Assembly: GCF_913773735.1 (NCBI RefSeq)
Contig: NZ_CAJYEB010000023.1
Coordinates: forward strand, 124,001-188,000
Source of the DNA: an uncultured Massilia sp.
GTDB taxonomy: Bacteria; Pseudomonadota; Gammaproteobacteria; Burkholderiales; Burkholderiaceae_D
Length of the DNA stretch: 64,000 bases
Reading direction: 5' to 3'
The notes under the pieces are model-generated. The model was given only the letters and a program-made list of their open reading frames with translations, did no database searches and was not told where the DNA came from. Of this stretch, positions 3,190 through 59,533 are shown piece after piece. The position numbers were made by a program, and so were the translations under genes. How positions within the stretch are numbered: the stretch's first letter is position 1; each line of letters begins with the position of its first letter.

Positions 3190-4955
3190 AGACCGGTACC
3201 CAGGGCGCGCGCGTCGCGGCCGGCAAGGGCGTGGCGTTCACCAAGAGCCCCGTGCTGGCCGTGCGCCTGCCGGACTGGCGCTCGCGCGTCGTCCTGTTCG
3301 TGTTGTTCGCGGCGTTCGCCGCGCTGGCCTGCCGCGCGCTGTGGCTGCAGGGCGTGTCCGACCAGTTCCTGCAGAAGCAGGGCGCCAGCCGCTACATGCG
3401 CACCCAGGAACTGCCGGCCACGCGCGGCAAGATCTTCGACCGCAACGGCACCGTGCTGGCCTCGTCGCTGCCGGTCAAGTCGGTGTCGGCGTTCACCGAG
3501 GACATCAAGGGCACGCCGCCGGAAAAGCTGCACGAGCTGGCGACCCTGCTCGACCTGCCCGAGGCCGAGCTGCTGCGCAAGCTGGCCTCGGACCGTAGCT
3601 ACGTCTACCTGAAGCGCCAGGTCGAGATGGACGTCATCGCCAAGATCGAGAAGCTCGGCATCGACGGCCTCGACATGCGCAAGGAATACAAGCGCTTCTA
3701 TCCGCAGGGCGAGGTGATGGCGCACATGGTCGGCTTCACCAACGTCGAGGACGTGGGCCAGGAAGCGATGGAACTGGCGCAGCAGAAGAGCCTCGTCGGC
3801 CAGCCGGGCAGCCGGCGCGTGATCAAGGACCGCCTCGGCCGCATCGTCGAGGACGTGGGCCTGTCGCGCGAGCCGCACGACGGCAAGGACCTGCACCTGG
3901 CGGTCGACAGCAAGCTGCAGTACATCGCCTTCAACAGCATCAAGGAAGCCGTCGAGAAGTTCCACGCCAAGGCCGGCGCCGCCGTGGTGCTCGACGTGCA
4001 CACGGGCGAGGTGCTGGCGCTGACCAACTGGCCGACCTACAACCCGAACGACCGCTCGCGCCTGACCGGCGAGCAGCTGCGCAACCGCGTCATCACCGAT
4101 ACCTTCGAGCCGGGTTCGACCCTGAAGCCCTTCACCGTGGCGCTGGCGCTGGACAAGGGCCTGATCAAGCCGAGCACCCTGATCGACACCGGCAACGGCC
4201 GCTATTTCACCGGCGGCCACCCGATCCGCGATACGCATCCGCACGGCGTCATCGACATCGGCACCATCATCCAGAAGTCGTCCAACATCGGCACGACCAA
4301 GGTCTCGGAAATGCTGTCGGCGCAGGAGATGTGGGAGATGTTCACCAAGGTCGGCTTCGGCCAGGCCCCGCGCTTCGGCTTCCCCGGCGCCGCCGCCGGC
4401 CGCGTGCGGCCGTACAAGTCGTGGCGCATCGTCGAGAAGGCCAATATGTCGTTCGGCCAGGGCATCTCGATGTCGCTGCTGCAGCTGGCGCACGCCTGGC
4501 TGATCTTCGCGCGCGAAGGCGACATCATCCCGCTGTCGTTCCAGAAGACCACCGAGAAGCCGGTCGGCCAGCAGATCATCTCGCCCAAGACGGCGGCCCA
4601 GATGCGCACCATGGTCGAATCCGTGGTGGGCCCGGGCGGCACGGCGTCGCTGGCCCAAGTGGCCGGCTACCGCGTGGGCGGCAAGACCGGCACCGCGCAG
4701 AAGGTCATCAACGGCCGCTATTCGCAGACGCGCTACGTCGGCAACTTCGTCGGCATCGCGCCGATGTCCAACCCGCGCTTCGTGATCGCCGTGATGATCG
4801 ACGACCCGAGCGGCCCCCTGCACACCGGCGGCAGCGTGGCGGCGCCGACCTTCGCCAAGCTGGCCGCGAACGCGCTGCGGGCGGACAACATACCGCCCGA
4901 CTCGACGGTCACCGACATCATCATTCCGGAACATCCTCTCGAGGAGAGCAATTGA
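3186..4955 (+). CDS. ftsI: Septal peptidoglycan transpeptidase FtsI (PBP3)
   Basis: A 589-residue class B penicillin-binding protein. There is one N-terminal membrane helix (about residues 36-58), a dimerisation domain starting at the RGKIFDRNG motif, and a transpeptidase domain with all three active-site motifs: STLK at Ser311-Lys314, SSN at 365-367, and KTG at 500-502. It crosslinks septal peptidoglycan together with FtsW. ATG at 3186 overlaps the ftsL stop by 4 bases; longer in-frame extensions lie inside rsmH/ftsL and are not credible. The next gene, murE, overlaps by one base. Confidence 0.96.
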   Translation: MKTGTQGARVAAGKGVAFTKSPVLAVRLPDWRSRVVLFVLFAAFAALACRALWLQGVSDQFLQKQGASRYMRTQELPATRGKIFDRNGTVLASSLPVKSVSAFTEDIKGTPPEKLHELATLLDLPEAELLRKLASDRSYVYLKRQVEMDVIAKIEKLGIDGLDMRKEYKRFYPQGEVMAHMVGFTNVEDVGQEAMELAQQKSLVGQPGSRRVIKDRLGRIVEDVGLSREPHDGKDLHLAVDSKLQYIAFNSIKEAVEKFHAKAGAAVVLDVHTGEVLALTNWPTYNPNDRSRLTGEQLRNRVITDTFEPGSTLKPFTVALALDKGLIKPSTLIDTGNGRYFTGGHPIRDTHPHGVIDIGTIIQKSSNIGTTKVSEMLSAQEMWEMFTKVGFGQAPRFGFPGAAAGRVRPYKSWRIVEKANMSFGQGISMSLLQLAHAWLIFAREGDIIPLSFQKTTEKPVGQQIISPKTAAQMRTMVESVVGPGGTASLAQVAGYRVGGKTGTAQKVINGRYSQTRYVGNFVGIAPMSNPRFVIAVMIDDPSGPLHTGGSVAAPTFAKLAANALRADNIPPDSTVTDIIIPEHPLEESN

Positions 4956-6493
4956 TGGCTGAGAAGCCGAACGACATCCGCCAGTGGATCGAGGCCGCCG
5001 CACCGGGCGGCCGCCTCGTTTCCGACTCGCGCCGCGTGCAGCGGGGCGACGTCTTCCTCGCCTATCCGGGCGCGGCCGCCGACGGCCGCCGCTTCATCGC
5101 CGCCGCCGTCGCGAACGGCGCCGCCGCGGTCGTGTACGACGGCGCCGGCTTCGCCTGGGACGACGCGCTGGCGGTGCCGCACCTGGCCGTGGCCGACCTG
5201 AAGGCGAACGCCGGCGCGATCGCCCACGCCTTCTACCGGCAGCCGGACGCCGCCATGTTCACGGTGGGCGTGACCGGCACCAACGGCAAGACCTCGTGCG
5301 CGCTCTGGACCGCGCAGGCGCTGGCCCGGCTGGGCGGCACCGCGGGCGTGATCGGCACGCTGGGCGTGGGCCTCGTGCGCGGCGCCGACGCCGACGCCGC
5401 GCAATTCGACCCCACCGGCTACACCACGCCGGACGCCGTGCTGCTGGCGTCCGAGCTGGACAAGCTGCGCGCGGCCGGCGCCGACGCGCTGGCGATCGAG
5501 GTGTCGTCGATCGGCCTGGTGGAAAACCGCACGGCTGGCATGCACTTCGACGTCGCCGTCTTCACCAACCTGACGCGCGACCACCTCGACTACCACGGCG
5601 ACATGGCCGCCTACGAAGCCGCCAAGCTGCGGCTGTTCGCCTGGCCCGGCCTGAAGACCGCGGTGGTCAACCTGGACGACGCGGCCGGCGTGCGCGTCGC
5701 CCGCCATGTGCGCGCCAACTTCCCGCAGGTGGCCGTGACCGGCTACACGCTGCGCTCCGCGGCCGAGGCGCCGGACATCGACGGCGTGGCCGTGCTGCGC
5801 GCCTCGCAGCTGCGCAGCCGTCCGGCCGGCACCGAATTCCAGCTCGACTCGCCGTTCGGCAGCGCACTGGCACGCACGCGCCTGGTCGGCCACTTCAATG
5901 CCAGCAACGCGCTGGCGGTGCTCGGCGCCCTGCTGGCCAAGGGCGTCGCGCTGCGCGCCGCGCTGGACGCCATCGAGACCCTGCAGCCGGCCCCGGGCCG
6001 CATGCAGCAGGTCGGCGGCCAGGACGCGCCGATGGTCGTGATCGACTACGCGCACACGCCGGACGCGCTGGACAAGACGCTCGAGGCGCTGCGCCCGGTG
6101 GCGCGCGAGCGCGGCGGCCAGCTGTGGTGCGTGTTCGGCTGCGGCGGCGACCGCGACCCGGGCAAGCGTCCGCAGATGGGCCGCATCGCCCAGGCGGCCG
6201 ACCACGTGGTGGTTACCAGCGACAATCCGCGCAGCGAAGAGCCGCGCGCGATCATCGACCAGATCGTGGCGGGGATGGACGCCGCGCTGCCTGCGCGCGT
6301 GCAGGCGATCGAGGACCGCGCGACGGCGATCCTGGTCGCCGTCAAGAACGCCGGCAAGCCGGACGTGATCCTGCTGGCGGGGAAGGGCCATGAGCCCTAC
6401 CAGGAAATCAAGGGCCGCAGGATCCCGTTCTCCGACGCCGACCACGCCGCGCTGGCCCTGAGCGCGCGGCTCACGATGATGAGGGCCGGCTGA
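4955..6493 (+). CDS. murE: UDP-MurNAc-tripeptide synthetase MurE (meso-diaminopimelate adding)
   Basis: A 512-residue Mur ligase that adds meso-diaminopimelate to UDP-MurNAc-L-Ala-D-Glu in the cytoplasm. The ATP loop GTGTNGKTS is present near residue 108, and the DNPR motif (Asp423-Arg426, followed by SEEP) is the signature that selects diaminopimelate rather than lysine. The ATG at 4955 overlaps the ftsI TGA by one base. murF follows with another one-base overlap, indicating tight translational coupling. Length is normal for the family. Confidence 0.96.
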   Translation: MAEKPNDIRQWIEAAAPGGRLVSDSRRVQRGDVFLAYPGAAADGRRFIAAAVANGAAAVVYDGAGFAWDDALAVPHLAVADLKANAGAIAHAFYRQPDAAMFTVGVTGTNGKTSCALWTAQALARLGGTAGVIGTLGVGLVRGADADAAQFDPTGYTTPDAVLLASELDKLRAAGADALAIEVSSIGLVENRTAGMHFDVAVFTNLTRDHLDYHGDMAAYEAAKLRLFAWPGLKTAVVNLDDAAGVRVARHVRANFPQVAVTGYTLRSAAEAPDIDGVAVLRASQLRSRPAGTEFQLDSPFGSALARTRLVGHFNASNALAVLGALLAKGVALRAALDAIETLQPAPGRMQQVGGQDAPMVVIDYAHTPDALDKTLEALRPVARERGGQLWCVFGCGGDRDPGKRPQMGRIAQAADHVVVTSDNPRSEEPRAIIDQIVAGMDAALPARVQAIEDRATAILVAVKNAGKPDVILLAGKGHEPYQEIKGRRIPFSDADHAALALSARLTMMRAG

Positions 6494-7959
6494 TGCGCGG
6501 CACGCTCGCACGACTGGCCCCGGCGATCGCCGGCGCGCGCCTGGCCGGCGCCGGAGCGCCGGACGTCGCCTTCGAGGGCGTCTCGACCGACAGCCGCACG
6601 GTGGCGCAGGGCGCCCTGTTCGTCGCGCTGCGCGGCGAGATCTTCGACGCCCACGACTTCCTCGACCAGGTCGCCGCGCGTGGCGTGGCCGCGGTGGTGG
6701 CCGAACGCCTGCCGGACGGTTTCCCGCTGCCGGCGCTGCTGGTGCCGGACACGCTGGCCGCGCTGGGCCGCATCGGCAACGCCTGGCGCCGGGACTTCGC
6801 CATCCCCGTCATCGGCGTCACCGGCAGCAACGGCAAGACGACGGTCAAGGAAATGATCGCGTCGATCCTGGCGGCGGCCTTCGGCACGGAGGCGCGCCTG
6901 GCCACGCAGGGCAACCTGAACAACGAGATCGGCGTGCCGCTGACCGTGATGCGCCTCACCGGAGCGCACCGGGCGGCCGTGGTCGAACTGGGCATGAACC
7001 ACCCGGGCGAGATCGCGCGCCTGGCGGCCATCGCGCAACCGACCGTGGCGCTGGTGAACAACGCCCAGCGCGAGCACCAGGAATTCATGCACACGGTGGA
7101 AGCGGTGGCGCGCGAGAACGGTGCCGTGCTGGCGGCCCTGCCGGCGGACGGCGTGGCCGTGTTCCCGGGCGACGACGCATACACGGACCTGTGGCGCGGA
7201 TTGGCGGGGGAGCGTGCCGTGCTGACGTTCGGCCTGTCGGATGCCTGCGACGTGCGCGCGACGTACGTGCCGAACAGCTTCGGCAACGACCTGACCGTGA
7301 GCGTTTCGTCGTCGCCCCGGCGCAGGCCCGGGCCCAATGTCACCGACGTTGCCGCTGGGGCGAACCAGGATCCCGGCCTGCGCCGGGACGACGGTTTGAC
7401 GTTCAGCGTCAAGCTGTCCGCCGCCGGCACCCACAACGTGCGCAACGCCCTGGCCGCCGCCGCCTGCGCCCTGGCCGCCGGCATCGAGGTCGACGCCATC
7501 GTGCGCGGCCTGGAAGCGTTCGCGCCCGTCAGCGGCCGCTTGCAGCGCAAGCAGGCCGCCTGCGGCGCCACCGTGATCGACGACACCTACAACGCCAACC
7601 CGGATTCCGTGCGCGCCGCCATCGACGTGCTGGCGCAGGCCCCGTCGCCGCGCATCCTGGTGCTGGGCGACATGGGCGAGGTCGGCACGCAGGGACCGGA
7701 GTTTCACCGGGAAATCGGCGCCTATGCCCGCCACAAGGGCATCGACGCCGTGCTCGCGACCGGCGTGCTGGCACGCCACATGGCCGGATCGGGAGCGCAA
7801 CACTACGAGCAGTTCGACGAATTATTGGCAGCACTGGATCAAAGACTGGGCAGCAAATCTGACGCAACTGTGTTGGTGAAGGGCTCGCGCTTCATGAAGA
7901 TGGAGCGCGTGGTCCTGCACCTGACCGCATCAACAAACACTGGCAAGGACGCCCACTAA
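6493..7959 (+). CDS. murF: UDP-MurNAc-pentapeptide synthetase MurF, carrying an in-frame palindromic repeat
   Basis: A 488-residue Mur ligase that adds D-Ala-D-Ala to complete UDP-MurNAc-pentapeptide. [10 protein letters not shown] near residues 110-119 is the ATP loop; the central [13 protein letters not shown] and later [10 protein letters not shown] and [10 protein letters not shown] motifs are canonical. Between GNDLTVSV and LTFSVKLS about 28 extra residues (about 273-301, containing SPRRRPGPN and PGLRRDDG) are the translation of an 84-bp palindromic repeat (7310-7393) that occurs elsewhere in this window between genes. The frame is maintained and all downstream motifs are intact, so the gene is likely functional. 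Start overlaps the murE stop by one base. Confidence 0.95.
7310..7393. repeat. REP-like palindromic element inside murF (copy 1)
   Basis: The left arm starts CGTCGCCCCGGCGCAGGCC and the right arm reads CGGCCTGCGCCGGGACGACG, separated by unique sequence. It matches the intergenic copies at 39305-39391 and 59450-59533, with a few substitutions in each arm. Its 84-base length is a multiple of three and it contains no stop in the murF frame. Confidence 0.85.
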
Positions 7960-7963
7960 GACT

Positions 7964-9133
7964 ATGCTGCTTTGGCTCGCACAATACTTCCAGGACTACA
8001 TCGGTCCGCTCCGCGTTTTCAGCTACATCACCTTCCGGGCGGTGTTCGCGACCATTACCGCGATCACCATCGGCCTGCTGTGCGGCCCGGCCGTGATCCG
8101 TAAGCTGACCGACCTGAAGGTCGGCCAGGCCGTGCGCACCTACGGCCCGCAGACCCACCTGCAGAAGCACGGCACCCCGACCATGGGCGGCGTGCTGGTC
8201 CTGATTTCCATCGCCGTCTCCACGCTGCTGTGGTGCGACCTGTCGAACCGCCTGATCTGGCCGGTGCTGGTCGTCACGCTCGGCTTCGGCGCGATCGGCT
8301 GGGTCGACGACTACCGCAAGGTGGTCTACAAGGACCCGGAAGGCATGCGCTCGGGCGAGAAGTATTTCTGGATGTCGCTGATCGGCATCACCTCCTCGCT
8401 GTACCTGGCGTTCTCGGTGTCGGCCGCCACCCCGTGGGAAGTGTGGAAGCTGTTCCTGGCCTGGGTGCAGTCGGGCTTCTCGATGGAGCTGCCGCCCAAG
8501 TCCGACCTGATCGTCCCGTTCTTCAAGAGCATCAGCTACCCGCTGGGCGTGTGGGGCTTCATCGCGCTGACCTATTGCGTGATCGTGGGCGCCTCCAACG
8601 CCGTCAACTTCACCGACGGCCTGGACGGCCTGGCGATCATGCCGACCGTGATGGTGGGCGGCGCCCTGGGCCTGTTCGCCTACCTGACCGGCAGCGCCAC
8701 CTATTCGCGCTACCTGTTCATCCCGCACATCCCGGGCGCCGGCGAGCTGCTGATCTTCTGCGGCGCGATGGCGGGCGCGGGCCTGGCCTTCCTGTGGTTC
8801 AACGCGCATCCGGCCCAGATGTTCATGGGCGACGTCGGCGCGCTGGCGCTGGGCGGCGCGCTCGGCACCATCGCCGTCATCGTGCGCCAGGAAATCGTCC
8901 TGTTCATCATGGGCGGCGTGTTCGTGGCCGAGACCCTGTCCGTGATCATCCAGGTCGCCTGGTTCAAGTACACCAAGAAGCGCTACGGCGCCGGGCGGCG
9001 CGTGTTCCTGATGGCGCCGCTGCACCACCATTTCGAACAGAAGGGCTGGAAGGAAACCAAGGTCGTGGTGCGCTTCTGGATCGTGACCATGGTGCTGGTG
9101 CTGATCGGCCTGTCCACCCTGAAACTGCGCTGA
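7964..9133 (+). CDS. mraY: Phospho-MurNAc-pentapeptide transferase MraY
   Basis: A 389-residue polytopic inner-membrane enzyme with about ten helices. It transfers phospho-MurNAc-pentapeptide to undecaprenyl phosphate to make lipid I. Diagnostic segments are [12 protein letters not shown] near residue 65, [16 protein letters not shown] near residue 218 (metal and substrate aspartates), [12 protein letters not shown], and the C-terminal [12 protein letters not shown] with the conserved histidines. ATG at 7964 follows murF by 4 bases. Length equals the beta-proteobacterial norm. Confidence 0.97.
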
Positions 9134-9149
9134 ACGAGGCGACGCGACG

Positions 9150-10655
9150 ATGAACTACGACGGCAAGACCGCACTGGTACTGGGGCTCGGCGAATCGGGC
9201 CTGGCGATGGCGCAATGGCTCGCGCGCCGCGGCGCGCGCGTGCGCGTGGCCGACACGCGCGCCGAGCCGGCGCGCCTGCCGGCATTGCGCGCGGCCGTGC
9301 CGGACGCGCAGTTCGTCGCCGGCGCGTTCGACGCGGCGCTGCTGGAGGACGCCGAGGGCATCGACTTCGTCGCCGTCAGCCCGGGCCTGGCGCCGCAGCG
9401 CGAACTGGCCGCCATCGCGCCGGCCGCCGCCGCGCGCGGCATCCCGCTGTGGGGCGAAATCGAACTGTTCGCCCAGGCGCTGGCCGCGCTGAAGCAGGAG
9501 CGCGGCTACGCGCCGAAGGTCATCGCGATCACGGGCACCAACGGCAAGACCACCGTCACCAGCATCACCGGCCTGCTGTGCCGCCGCGCCGGCCTCACGA
9601 CGCAGGTCGCCGGCAACATCAGCCCGGCCGCGCTGGACGTGCTACGCGAGGTGCTGGACAAGGACGCGCTGCCGCAGGCCTGGGTGCTGGAACTGTCCAG
9701 CTTCCAGCTGCATACCACCTCCAGCCTCGACGCGGATGCCGCGACGGTGCTGAACCTGACCCAGGACCACCTGGACTGGCACGGCAGCATGGCCGCCTAC
9801 GCCGCCGACAAGGCGCGCATCTTCGGCCCGCGCACCGTGCGCGTGCTGAACCGCGACGACGACCTCGTCATGGGCATGGCGGCGCCCGAGGCGCAGGTGG
9901 TCACCTTCGGCACCGGCGAGCCGGATGCGCCGGGCAGCTTCGGCCTCGTGAACGAACGCGGCGTGCTGTGGCTGGCGAACGCCAGCCCGGCCGAGGAACC
10001 CGAGAAGAAGCGCAAAAAGAATGAGGTGGCCGAACCGGTCGACCTGTTCGTCAACCGCATGATGCCGGCCGACGCGCTGCGCATCCGCGGCCTGCACAAC
10101 GCGGCCAACGCGCTGGCCGCGCTTGCGCTGTGCCGCGCCGTCGGCCTGCCGCTGGCGCCGCTGCTGCACGGCCTGCGCGACTACGCGGGCGAGCCGCACC
10201 GCGTCGAACTGGTGACCAGCATCGACGGCGTCGAGTACTACGACGATTCCAAGGGCACCAACGTCGGCGCCACCGTCGCCGCGCTGGAAGGCCTGGGCAA
10301 GACCTTCGGCGAGTCGGACCGCCAGATCCTCCTGATCGCGGGCGGCGACGGCAAGGGCCAGGACTTCGCGCCGCTGGCCGGCCCGTGCTCGCGCTACGTG
10401 AAGGCGGTGCTCCTGATCGGCCGCGACGCCGCGGCGATCCGCGCCGCCATCGCGCCGAGCGGCGTGCCGTGCTTCGACCTGGACGACCTGCCGCAGGCGG
10501 TGCGGCGCGGCGCCGGCCTGGCGAAATCCGGTGACGTGGTGCTGTTGTCGCCGGCCTGCGCCAGCCTGGACATGTTCACCAACTACGCGCATCGCGCCCA
10601 GGTGTTCGTGGACGCCGTGCGCGACATCGCGCTCGAGAAGGGACAGGACCTCTGA
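9150..10655 (+). CDS. murD: UDP-MurNAc-L-alanine:D-glutamate ligase MurD
   Basis: A 501-residue Mur ligase that adds D-glutamate to UDP-MurNAc-L-Ala. There is an N-terminal Rossmann domain with LVLGLGESG, the ATP loop GTNGKTT near residue 129, and SNG/HRVE-type C-terminal motifs ([24 protein letters not shown]). It is longer than the E. coli enzyme, partly because of a charged segment with [10 protein letters not shown] at about residues 286-298 in the central domain. A 16-base gap follows mraY; the stop overlaps ftsW by one base. Confidence 0.96.
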
Positions 10656-18953: not shown

Positions 18954-19053
18954 CAAACCGGGGTCAGAGCCCGGGTCAGAGCCCGAATTTTGGAAACTAA
19001 CTCGGTGCAATTGCCAAAAACCGGGCTCTGACCCCGGCTCTGACCCCGGTTTG
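18954..19053. repeat. 100-bp inverted repeat with GGGTCAGAGCC motifs
   Basis: Two 40-base arms (18954-18993 and 19014-19053) are nearly perfect reverse complements, about 37 of 40 positions. Each arm contains two tandem copies of a GGGTCAGAGCC motif. The loop of about 20 bases is unique. This resembles the palindromic units mobilised by REP-associated tyrosine transposases, but no such transposase is in the window. Confidence 0.8.
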
Positions 19054-25711: not shown

Positions 25712-25819
25712 GTAGGGTGGACGGCTTTGCCGTCCACGCGTCCGGCATGCGCTGCTTTGCCACCTGCGTGTCCGGCACGCGCTGGCTGGACGCGTGGACG
25801 GGGGACCCGTCCACCCTAC
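25712..25819. repeat. 108-bp cruciform-type repeat ending in the MerR gene stop codon
   Basis: The outer arms GTAGGGTGGACGG (25712-25724) and CCGTCCACCCTAC (25807-25819) are perfect reverse complements. Each half also forms its own hairpin (GGACGGC/GCCGTCC on the left, GGACGGG/CCCGTCC on the right), and GTCCACGCGTCC on the left pairs with GGACGCGTGGAC on the right. The stop codon of the minus-strand MerR gene (25816-25818) lies within the right arm. Confidence 0.8.
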
Positions 25820-39304: not shown

Positions 39305-39391
39305 CGTCTCCCCGGCGCAGGCCGGGGTCCAATCTTTCATGCGCTGCGATCACGCTCGCAACATTGGGCCCCGGCCTGCGCCGGGGCGACG
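39305..39391. repeat. REP-like palindromic element after paoC (copy 2)
   Basis: The arms 39305-39333 and 39363-39391 are near-perfect reverse complements around a 29-base spacer. It is the same family as copies at 7310-7393 and 59450-59533. It lies between the convergent paoC and beta-propeller genes. Confidence 0.85.
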
Positions 39392-59449: not shown

Positions 59450-59533
59450 CGTCGCCCCGGCGCAGGCCGGGGCCCAATTCCTGCGTTTCGACGGCGCAAG
59501 GAAAATTAGGCCCCGGCCTGCGCCGGGGCGACG
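59450..59533. repeat. REP-like palindromic element after guaD (copy 3)
   Basis: Thirty-base arms (59450-59479 and 59504-59533) are reverse complements with one or two mismatches around a 24-base spacer. The arms match copies at 7310 and 39305. It lies between guaD and the adenosine deaminase-like gene. Confidence 0.85.

Follow-up and report, generated by a model that had tools for sequence, protein, structure and literature searches.

The murF locus

The window, a 64,000-nucleotide stretch of Massilia DNA from the 5.88-Mb genome assembly G000, contains murE, murF, mraY and murD in this order on the forward strand. The murF gene carries an in-frame head-to-head dimer of CGTC-type REP units, and two intergenic dimers of the same family lie elsewhere in the window. 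The features are as follows.

4940..6490, + strand: murE, upstream neighbour of murF, with a provisional start (TIGR01085, 466.2 bits)
6493..7959, + strand: murF, UDP-MurNAc-tripeptide--D-Ala-D-Ala ligase, 488 residues including the insert (TIGR01143, Pfam and structure matches)
7310..7393, + strand: head-to-head CGTC-REP dimer, in frame, residues 273-301 (...DPGLRRDDG)
7310..7336, + strand: left REP unit with CGTC tag, one-mismatch stem, GCAG loop and CCA tail
7339..7365, + strand: spacer core separating the two REP units
7367..7393, - strand: right REP unit, inverted, with mismatch-free stem of 7.5 pairs (one G-U pair counted as half), GCAG loop and CCT tail
7964..9133, + strand: mraY, downstream neighbour of murF (TIGR00445, 404.4 bits)
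9150..10655, + strand: murD (TIGR01087, 378.3 bits)
39305..39391, no strand assigned: intergenic REP dimer of the same family as the murF insert (repeat finder)
59450..59533, no strand assigned: intergenic REP dimer of the same family as the murF insert (repeat finder)

The murF gene is generally regarded as essential. Its open reading frame scores 412.5 bits against TIGR01143 (cut-off, 288.6 bits), and Pfam Mur ligase domains are also found, with MurF domains on either side of the insert. The closest solved structures are those of MurF or MurE-MurF fusion proteins (4cvk_A, E 7.3e-47), and the protein belongs to the MurF family by both family score and fold.

A sequence-only reading of this DNA had described an 84-bp element with inverted arms inside murF and two matching intergenic palindromes. 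The element is present at 7310-7393, where it begins with CGTC and ends with GACG. Its length is divisible by three, as described, and it adds 28 codons without an in-frame stop. Both palindromes are also present, and the repeat finder pairs their arms with those of the murF element (7310-7340 with 39361-39391, 97% complementary; 7310-7338 with 59505-59533, 93% complementary). The same reading had taken substitutions in the arms as a sign of an older insertion, but this argument is weak. The left stem consists of seven pairs and one mismatch, whereas the right arm belongs to another variant that has no mismatch, so the arm differences alone are no proof of an old insertion.

The MurD open reading frame (9150-10655) encodes 501 residues, compared with the 441 positions of its family model, and contains a charged stretch that may be another tolerated loop.

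Genomic distribution of the REP family

The CCGG-type arm pattern has 223 exact matches in the G000 genome, compared with 12 for the pattern read backwards, and the dimer pattern has 20 matches per strand, compared with none for its control. A chance resemblance to REPs is ruled out by these controls. The genome also contains 39 CCCGC-type cores; both types were counted with 14-base patterns, which miss variants.

The 75 loci fetched from G000 contain 75 REP clusters, of which 67 are tagged. Under a coding-score rule, the murF copy is the only tagged cluster in frame in a gene and the other 66 are not scored in frame, which identifies a dispersed, multicopy and mostly extragenic family. No in-gene, in-frame REP was found among 27 tagged clusters sampled from G034 or 20 sampled from G061, the murF copies of both genomes being outside the samples. 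The window's murF copy is thus the sole one scored in frame among 114 tagged clusters from three genomes, a sample of all copies, and the rule itself recovers 13 of the 14 known murF inserts, missing L031. Three further in-frame hits in G000 (L095, L118 and L127) are untagged 14-mers and were counted as chance. The genome-wide arm search and coding-region count proposed in the sequence-only reading therefore yield hundreds of cores and, among the sampled clusters, a single in-frame copy in murF. The dispersal of the family suggests that the element is mobile. The three PF01797 genes of G000 have no CCGG-type or CCCGC-type core in their 3.2-3.3 kb loci.

Two other palindromic structures were observed in the window. 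A 43-bp inverted repeat at 18954-19053 consists of GGGTCAGAGCCC-like units with 91% complementary arms and 14 nt between them. An inverted repeat at 25712-25819 starts with GTAGGGTGGACGG and ends with GTCCACCCTAC, has 83% complementary arms and may be a GTAG-ended REP-type dimer. GTAG-type REPs are those of REPIN/RAYT systems.

Predicted structure of the insert

The AlphaFold model of MurF has a mean pLDDT of 91.1, with low values at residues 279-299 (below 50) and at the C-terminus. In the model, the insert connects the strands formed by residues 264-271 and 302-308. Mapping of the insert on a structure model, as the sequence-only reading had proposed, yields a predicted disordered loop between two strands of an otherwise confident MurF, and the insert would be read as a disordered loop at a β-hairpin turn of the MurF middle domain.

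The RNA of the insert region is predicted to fold strongly, with z values of -4.1 in the window and -6.8 to -7.5 in four relatives, versus +0.5 for one uninserted gene. Such folding is to be expected from the palindrome itself and does not indicate a function. The hairpins of these five inserts do agree with an explanation in which one or a few ancient insertions spread and were lost through short-tract murF recombination between species, and in which the arms are kept by selection on an RNA or DNA hairpin, such as an mRNA element in murE-murF-mraY-murD. On all the evidence given below, we consider this explanation unlikely.

Occurrence across Massilia and related genera

A murF gene was found in all 62 Massilia genomes searched. 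In 14 of them (G000, G003, G009, G012, G013, G017, G020, G022, G024, G025, G034, G055, G057 and G061), the MurF hairpin contains a REP dimer, and the hairpin segment spans 40-66 residues with the REP peptide. In the remaining 48, the segment is exactly 15 residues long in 46 genomes and 18 or 19 in two; the loci L049, L063 and L082 were read individually and are uninserted. The sequence-only reading had proposed that a REP palindrome lengthens MurF in frame and would have abandoned the proposal if all relatives had a similar loop without palindromic DNA. The uninserted genes in 48 of the 62 Massilia genomes, 46 of them with the 15-residue segment, support the proposal. The 13 further Massilia genomes with REP dimers at the same MurF site had been missed.

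The insert was not found in other genera of the same family, of which 137 genomes were searched and 134 gave a MurF match (E 1e-40 or better; one match consists of two pieces on two contigs). The longest MurF span in these genera is 597 bp, compared with 624-684 bp in three insert-bearing genomes. When a somewhat less stringent pattern is used, 15 of the other-genus genomes contain at least 50 REP cores, and the 14 of these with a MurF match also lack the insert. Among the best 80 named loci, only L161 encodes the REP peptide, and this locus is from G055, which was already counted. Absence from 48 of 62 Massilia genomes and from the 134 genomes of other genera leaves the hairpin no general role, which counts against ancient insertions maintained by selection.

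A murF tree from which the loop columns were excluded needs no fewer than 11 changes of the insert state, a minimum imposed by its starred branches, and the scatter of that state is close to that of shuffled labels (mean, 12.8 changes; 46 of 500 shuffles as low). REP dimers occupy the hairpin turn in 14 of 62 genomes, which lie dispersed over the gene tree, and this marks the turn as a permissive site that has accepted REP dimers in several lineages. Several separate insertions, probably at least about three, are likely. The number of changes and the 15-residue segment in 46 of 48 uninserted genomes also suit a stronger version of this account, in which many independent insertions were drawn from the REP pool of each host without gene conversion and the turn is the one tolerant place in the gene. 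We regard this version as rather unlikely for reasons that lie in the phase and spacers of the inserts.

In L186 (Duganella sp. Root1480D1) and L189 (Pseudoduganella violaceinigra), the hairpin is about 15 residues longer and rich in Ala, Gly and Ser without a REP peptide, so the turn tolerates other extensions too. These two loops would be expected if the insert were an ordinary MurF loop with DNA that has come to look like a REP by chance or convergence. The tagged and paired arms, whose type is shared with hundreds of copies elsewhere in the genome, and the constant 15-residue segment in 46 Massilia genomes make such an origin extremely improbable. In L185 (Duganella sp. 1411), the MurF match spans 2036 bp, approximately 640 bp more than in relatives, and may represent a separate insertion or a joined match. 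Immediately 3' of its insert, the murF gene of L029 (G057) has a GCGGGAATGACG fragment that resembles the terminus of another, disrupted REP.

Repeat load

At least 50 REP cores are present in 34 of the 62 genomes, and these include every one of the 14 insert genomes (hypergeometric P = 4.8e-5); the threshold of 50 was chosen after the counts were known. A tree-aware sign test of load against insert gave a median p of 0.031 (range, 0.008-0.25), and the test with the traits swapped gave 0.063 (0.008-0.125). The insert is absent from 20 REP-rich Massilia genomes. The prediction of insert presence by REP load is in line with the explanation favoured below and also with many independent insertions.

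The number of REPs in close relatives differs by up to approximately 22-fold (177 versus 8 in G003 and G060, 316 versus 14 in G025 and G002, and 91 versus 30 in G009 and G008), which shows that REP populations grow or contract fast in this genus.

Reading frame and length

The 13 intact inserts all begin in the same codon phase and are 84 bp (five inserts), 102 bp (four) or 105 bp (four) long; L035, whose left unit is damaged, is outside this set. For comparison, a pattern that targeted only the head-to-head arrangement yielded 79 dimers in 114 loci fetched from three genomes. Only 25 of these genomic dimers are a multiple of three in length. Each reading phase is open in 113-127 of their 158 orientations, so finding an open frame is not unusual. 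A constant phase in 13 of 13 inserts is unexpected under many blind insertions and is compatible with shared descent or with a filter for a charged, flexible peptide. The constancy could reflect a shared origin instead of a protein filter, and a common phase is also what one or a few ancient insertions would leave.

The inserts start at three offsets (+1, +4 and +10 bases past a V codon, determined by eye), as many independent insertions would predict. The three length classes were dropped as proof of separate insertions because lengths can change, as indicated by L035, which looks like a 105-type insert with deletions. L030 has only its length in common with its length class.

Insert arms and host REP type

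The insert arm is of the host's majority type in 11 of the 12 genomes with a majority of at least 3:1. The matching inserts are of the CCGG type in G000, G025 and G061 and of the CCCGC type in eight genomes, and three CCCGC inserts (L025, L027 and L030) have a variant right arm. The exception, L026 (G055), has a CCCTGC left stem that belongs to neither type. In the mixed-type hosts G034 and G003, the inserts are CCCGC. The REP type is partly structured by the species tree, so the arm matching rests on few independent cases, namely, G000 alone and G025 with G061 in one clade. Many independent insertions would explain the tracking of the host without extra assumptions, whereas selection on pairing alone would keep the arms paired but leave their match to the host type unexplained.

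The arms are not constant in inserts that share a spacer. In the 105-bp group, L032 and L033 carry CCGG-type arms, whereas those of L031 and L034 belong to the CCCGC type. The best stem is free of mismatches in 25 of the 26 arms of 13 inserts, although the finder picks the best stem and favours zero mismatches. Stems that remain paired while the spacers drift are hardly explained by drift alone and would be explained by conversion from genomic REPs.

History of the spacers and flanks

The spacers of the murF inserts were compared with those of 121 genomic dimers from eight genomes other than G000 and 41 dimers from G000; the insert hosts G012, G013, G017, G055 and G057 yielded no genomic dimers for this comparison. 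Within the 105-bp group (L031-L034), the spacers are homologous, with all six pairs exceeding codon shuffles (p 0.0005-0.0115). The best partner within the group scores 0.36-0.39, compared with 0.07-0.16 for any of the 121 and 41 genomic dimers. Homologous spacers are also found in L025, L027 and L036 (p 0.001 or less) and in L024 and L029 (21 of 27 positions), and the spacer of L028 is weakly related to those of L024 and L029 (p 0.007 and 0.013). The remaining seven pairs in the 84-bp class have p values of 0.06-0.23, and L030 is unrelated to its length class. The homology in L031-L034 and in L025, L027 and L036 exceeds the sharing seen with genomic dimers and argues against independent insertion of every copy; spacers held in common are consistent with one or a few ancient insertions.

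The spacer is nearer to some genomic dimer than to any murF insert in L023, L026, L028 and L035. L023 is the window's own insert, and its spacer (7339-7365) has no significant match among the other 84-bp murF inserts. The best of 41 dimers from its own genome scores 0.31, compared with 0.10 for the best murF insert. This proximity suggests that the window's insert is a separate insertion drawn from its own genome and gives slightly more weight to many independent insertions. A genomic dimer in G024 has the spacer length of the 102-bp inserts, another point for that explanation, and the 102-bp group may consist of separate insertions of one REP subfamily.

The spacers of the 105-bp group differ at 29-44% of sites, and the fourfold sites of the same genes differ at 25-37%. 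This group is therefore old, and its neutral level of divergence is a further difficulty for many independent insertions. Close relatives of the group members lack the insert, which would require either interspecies exchange in short tracts or repeated loss. Divergence around the site was measured on anchored flanks. In the seven codons 5' of the site, it is 0.28 in nine inserted-uninserted pairs versus 0.03 in 11 uninserted pairs of similar overall distance, and in the nine 3' codons it is 0.27 versus 0.16; the pairs are mutually dependent. Pairwise counts across the whole loop (e.g. 24/45) were discarded, since the aligner's placement of the 15 residues is arbitrary. The confinement of the excess divergence to codons beside the insert would fit spread by recombination, but the exchange tracts would have to be very short.

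Proposed origin and maintenance

We favour, as the probable explanation, insertion of a head-to-head CGTC-type REP dimer into the β-hairpin turn of the MurF middle domain, followed by replacement of its arms from genomic REPs. The permissive turn would have been hit several times and in several lineages. The arms would remain paired stems, usually of the host's dominant REP type, while the spacer and flanks drift, and gene conversion or another templated replacement from the other REPs of the genome could keep them current. The loop would be tolerated because the phase present gives a charged, flexible peptide and the surrounding fold is left undisturbed, and no cellular function would be required. 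Insertion, conversion and tolerance are inferred from the sequence comparison. Several observations weigh against this explanation: the small number of independent cases of arm matching, the inserts with variant or unassigned arms, the two mixed hosts, the four spacers nearer to genomic dimers than to murF inserts, the scatter of one spacer group among uninserted sister genomes, and the finding of no REP core at the three transposase loci of G000. A more far-reaching form of this proposal is that approximately 28-35 residues of MurF are in concerted evolution with the selfish repeats of the genome, with the coding arms being rewritten by conversion from intergenic REPs. We put this form forward tentatively, as a conceivable outcome that may well prove wrong. 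Higgins (1988) reportedly asked whether REPs evolve by gene conversion and, by its title, did not address copies within coding sequence.

Relation to known palindromic repeats

CGTC REPs have been described by Di Nocera, De Gregorio and Rocco (2013; PMC3733652) as units with a CGTC tag, a stem of 8-9 bp, a loop of 4-5 bases and a CCA-like tail. Head-to-head dimers predominate, the repeats are mostly intergenic with some in genes, and recB of two Xanthomonas species contains different REPs at about one site (PMC3733652). The murF element has the terminal tag (CGTC from 7310 and GACG ending at 7393) and a comparable stem and loop (7.5 pairs on the right, seven pairs and one mismatch on the left, GCAG loops); its left tail is CCA and its right tail CCT. 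In the numbered families 1-4 of that report, a complementary A-T at stem positions one and two is almost invariable (PMC3733652). The murF stems start with G-C and C-G on the left and with G-U and T-A on the right, so the element is CGTC-type by its tag and falls in no numbered family; the arms of some relatives (ATTCCCGC in L025 and L029) do have the A-T. The families described are mostly alpha-proteobacterial, and the main text of PMC3733652 contains no Massilia or mur match; no report of one protein site filled in many species, with arms that track the host, was found there.

In-frame palindromes are familiar from Rickettsia, in which the first report of Rickettsia palindromic elements (RPEs), by Ogata, is said to list 19 reading frames with RPEs. 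RPEs are palindromic repeats translated in frame in conserved genes, and Gmk with an RPE is active with a changed substrate affinity (PMC2229807); RPE-4 and RPE-6 are CGTC repeats (PMC3733652). RPEs occur in many Rickettsia genes, whereas the Massilia repeats fill one site in one gene, the other sampled copies being out of frame or outside genes, and their translation is predicted. The murF element also resembles REPINs, which are inverted REP pairs with a spacer (PMC3116915). REPINs are linked to RAYT genes, whereas no Y1-transposase locus with a matching REP core was found at the three PF01797 genes of G000.

CGTC-type REP dimers as a class and their in-frame insertion are thus already known from the text of PMC3733652 and from the Rickettsia RPEs. 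The new element is the context, a single MurF hairpin recurrently filled by REP dimers across a genus, and no account of this MurF insertion site was found in the top-ranked open-licence literature. Most known in-frame palindromic repeats are isolated examples. With one loop filled in 14 of 62 species, occupied and vacant versions of the site form a natural series within the same gene, which allows the entry, persistence and rewriting of REPs to be measured. No dedicated transposase is known for CGTC REPs (PMC3733652), and filled and empty pairs such as G009/G008 and G024/G037 are therefore direct material for studying the mechanism. The sequence of one segment of the enzyme appears to track the genome's repeat population. 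If the arms are indeed rewritten from intergenic REPs, a shift in the dominant REP type of a genome would shift the protein sequence of MurF as well.
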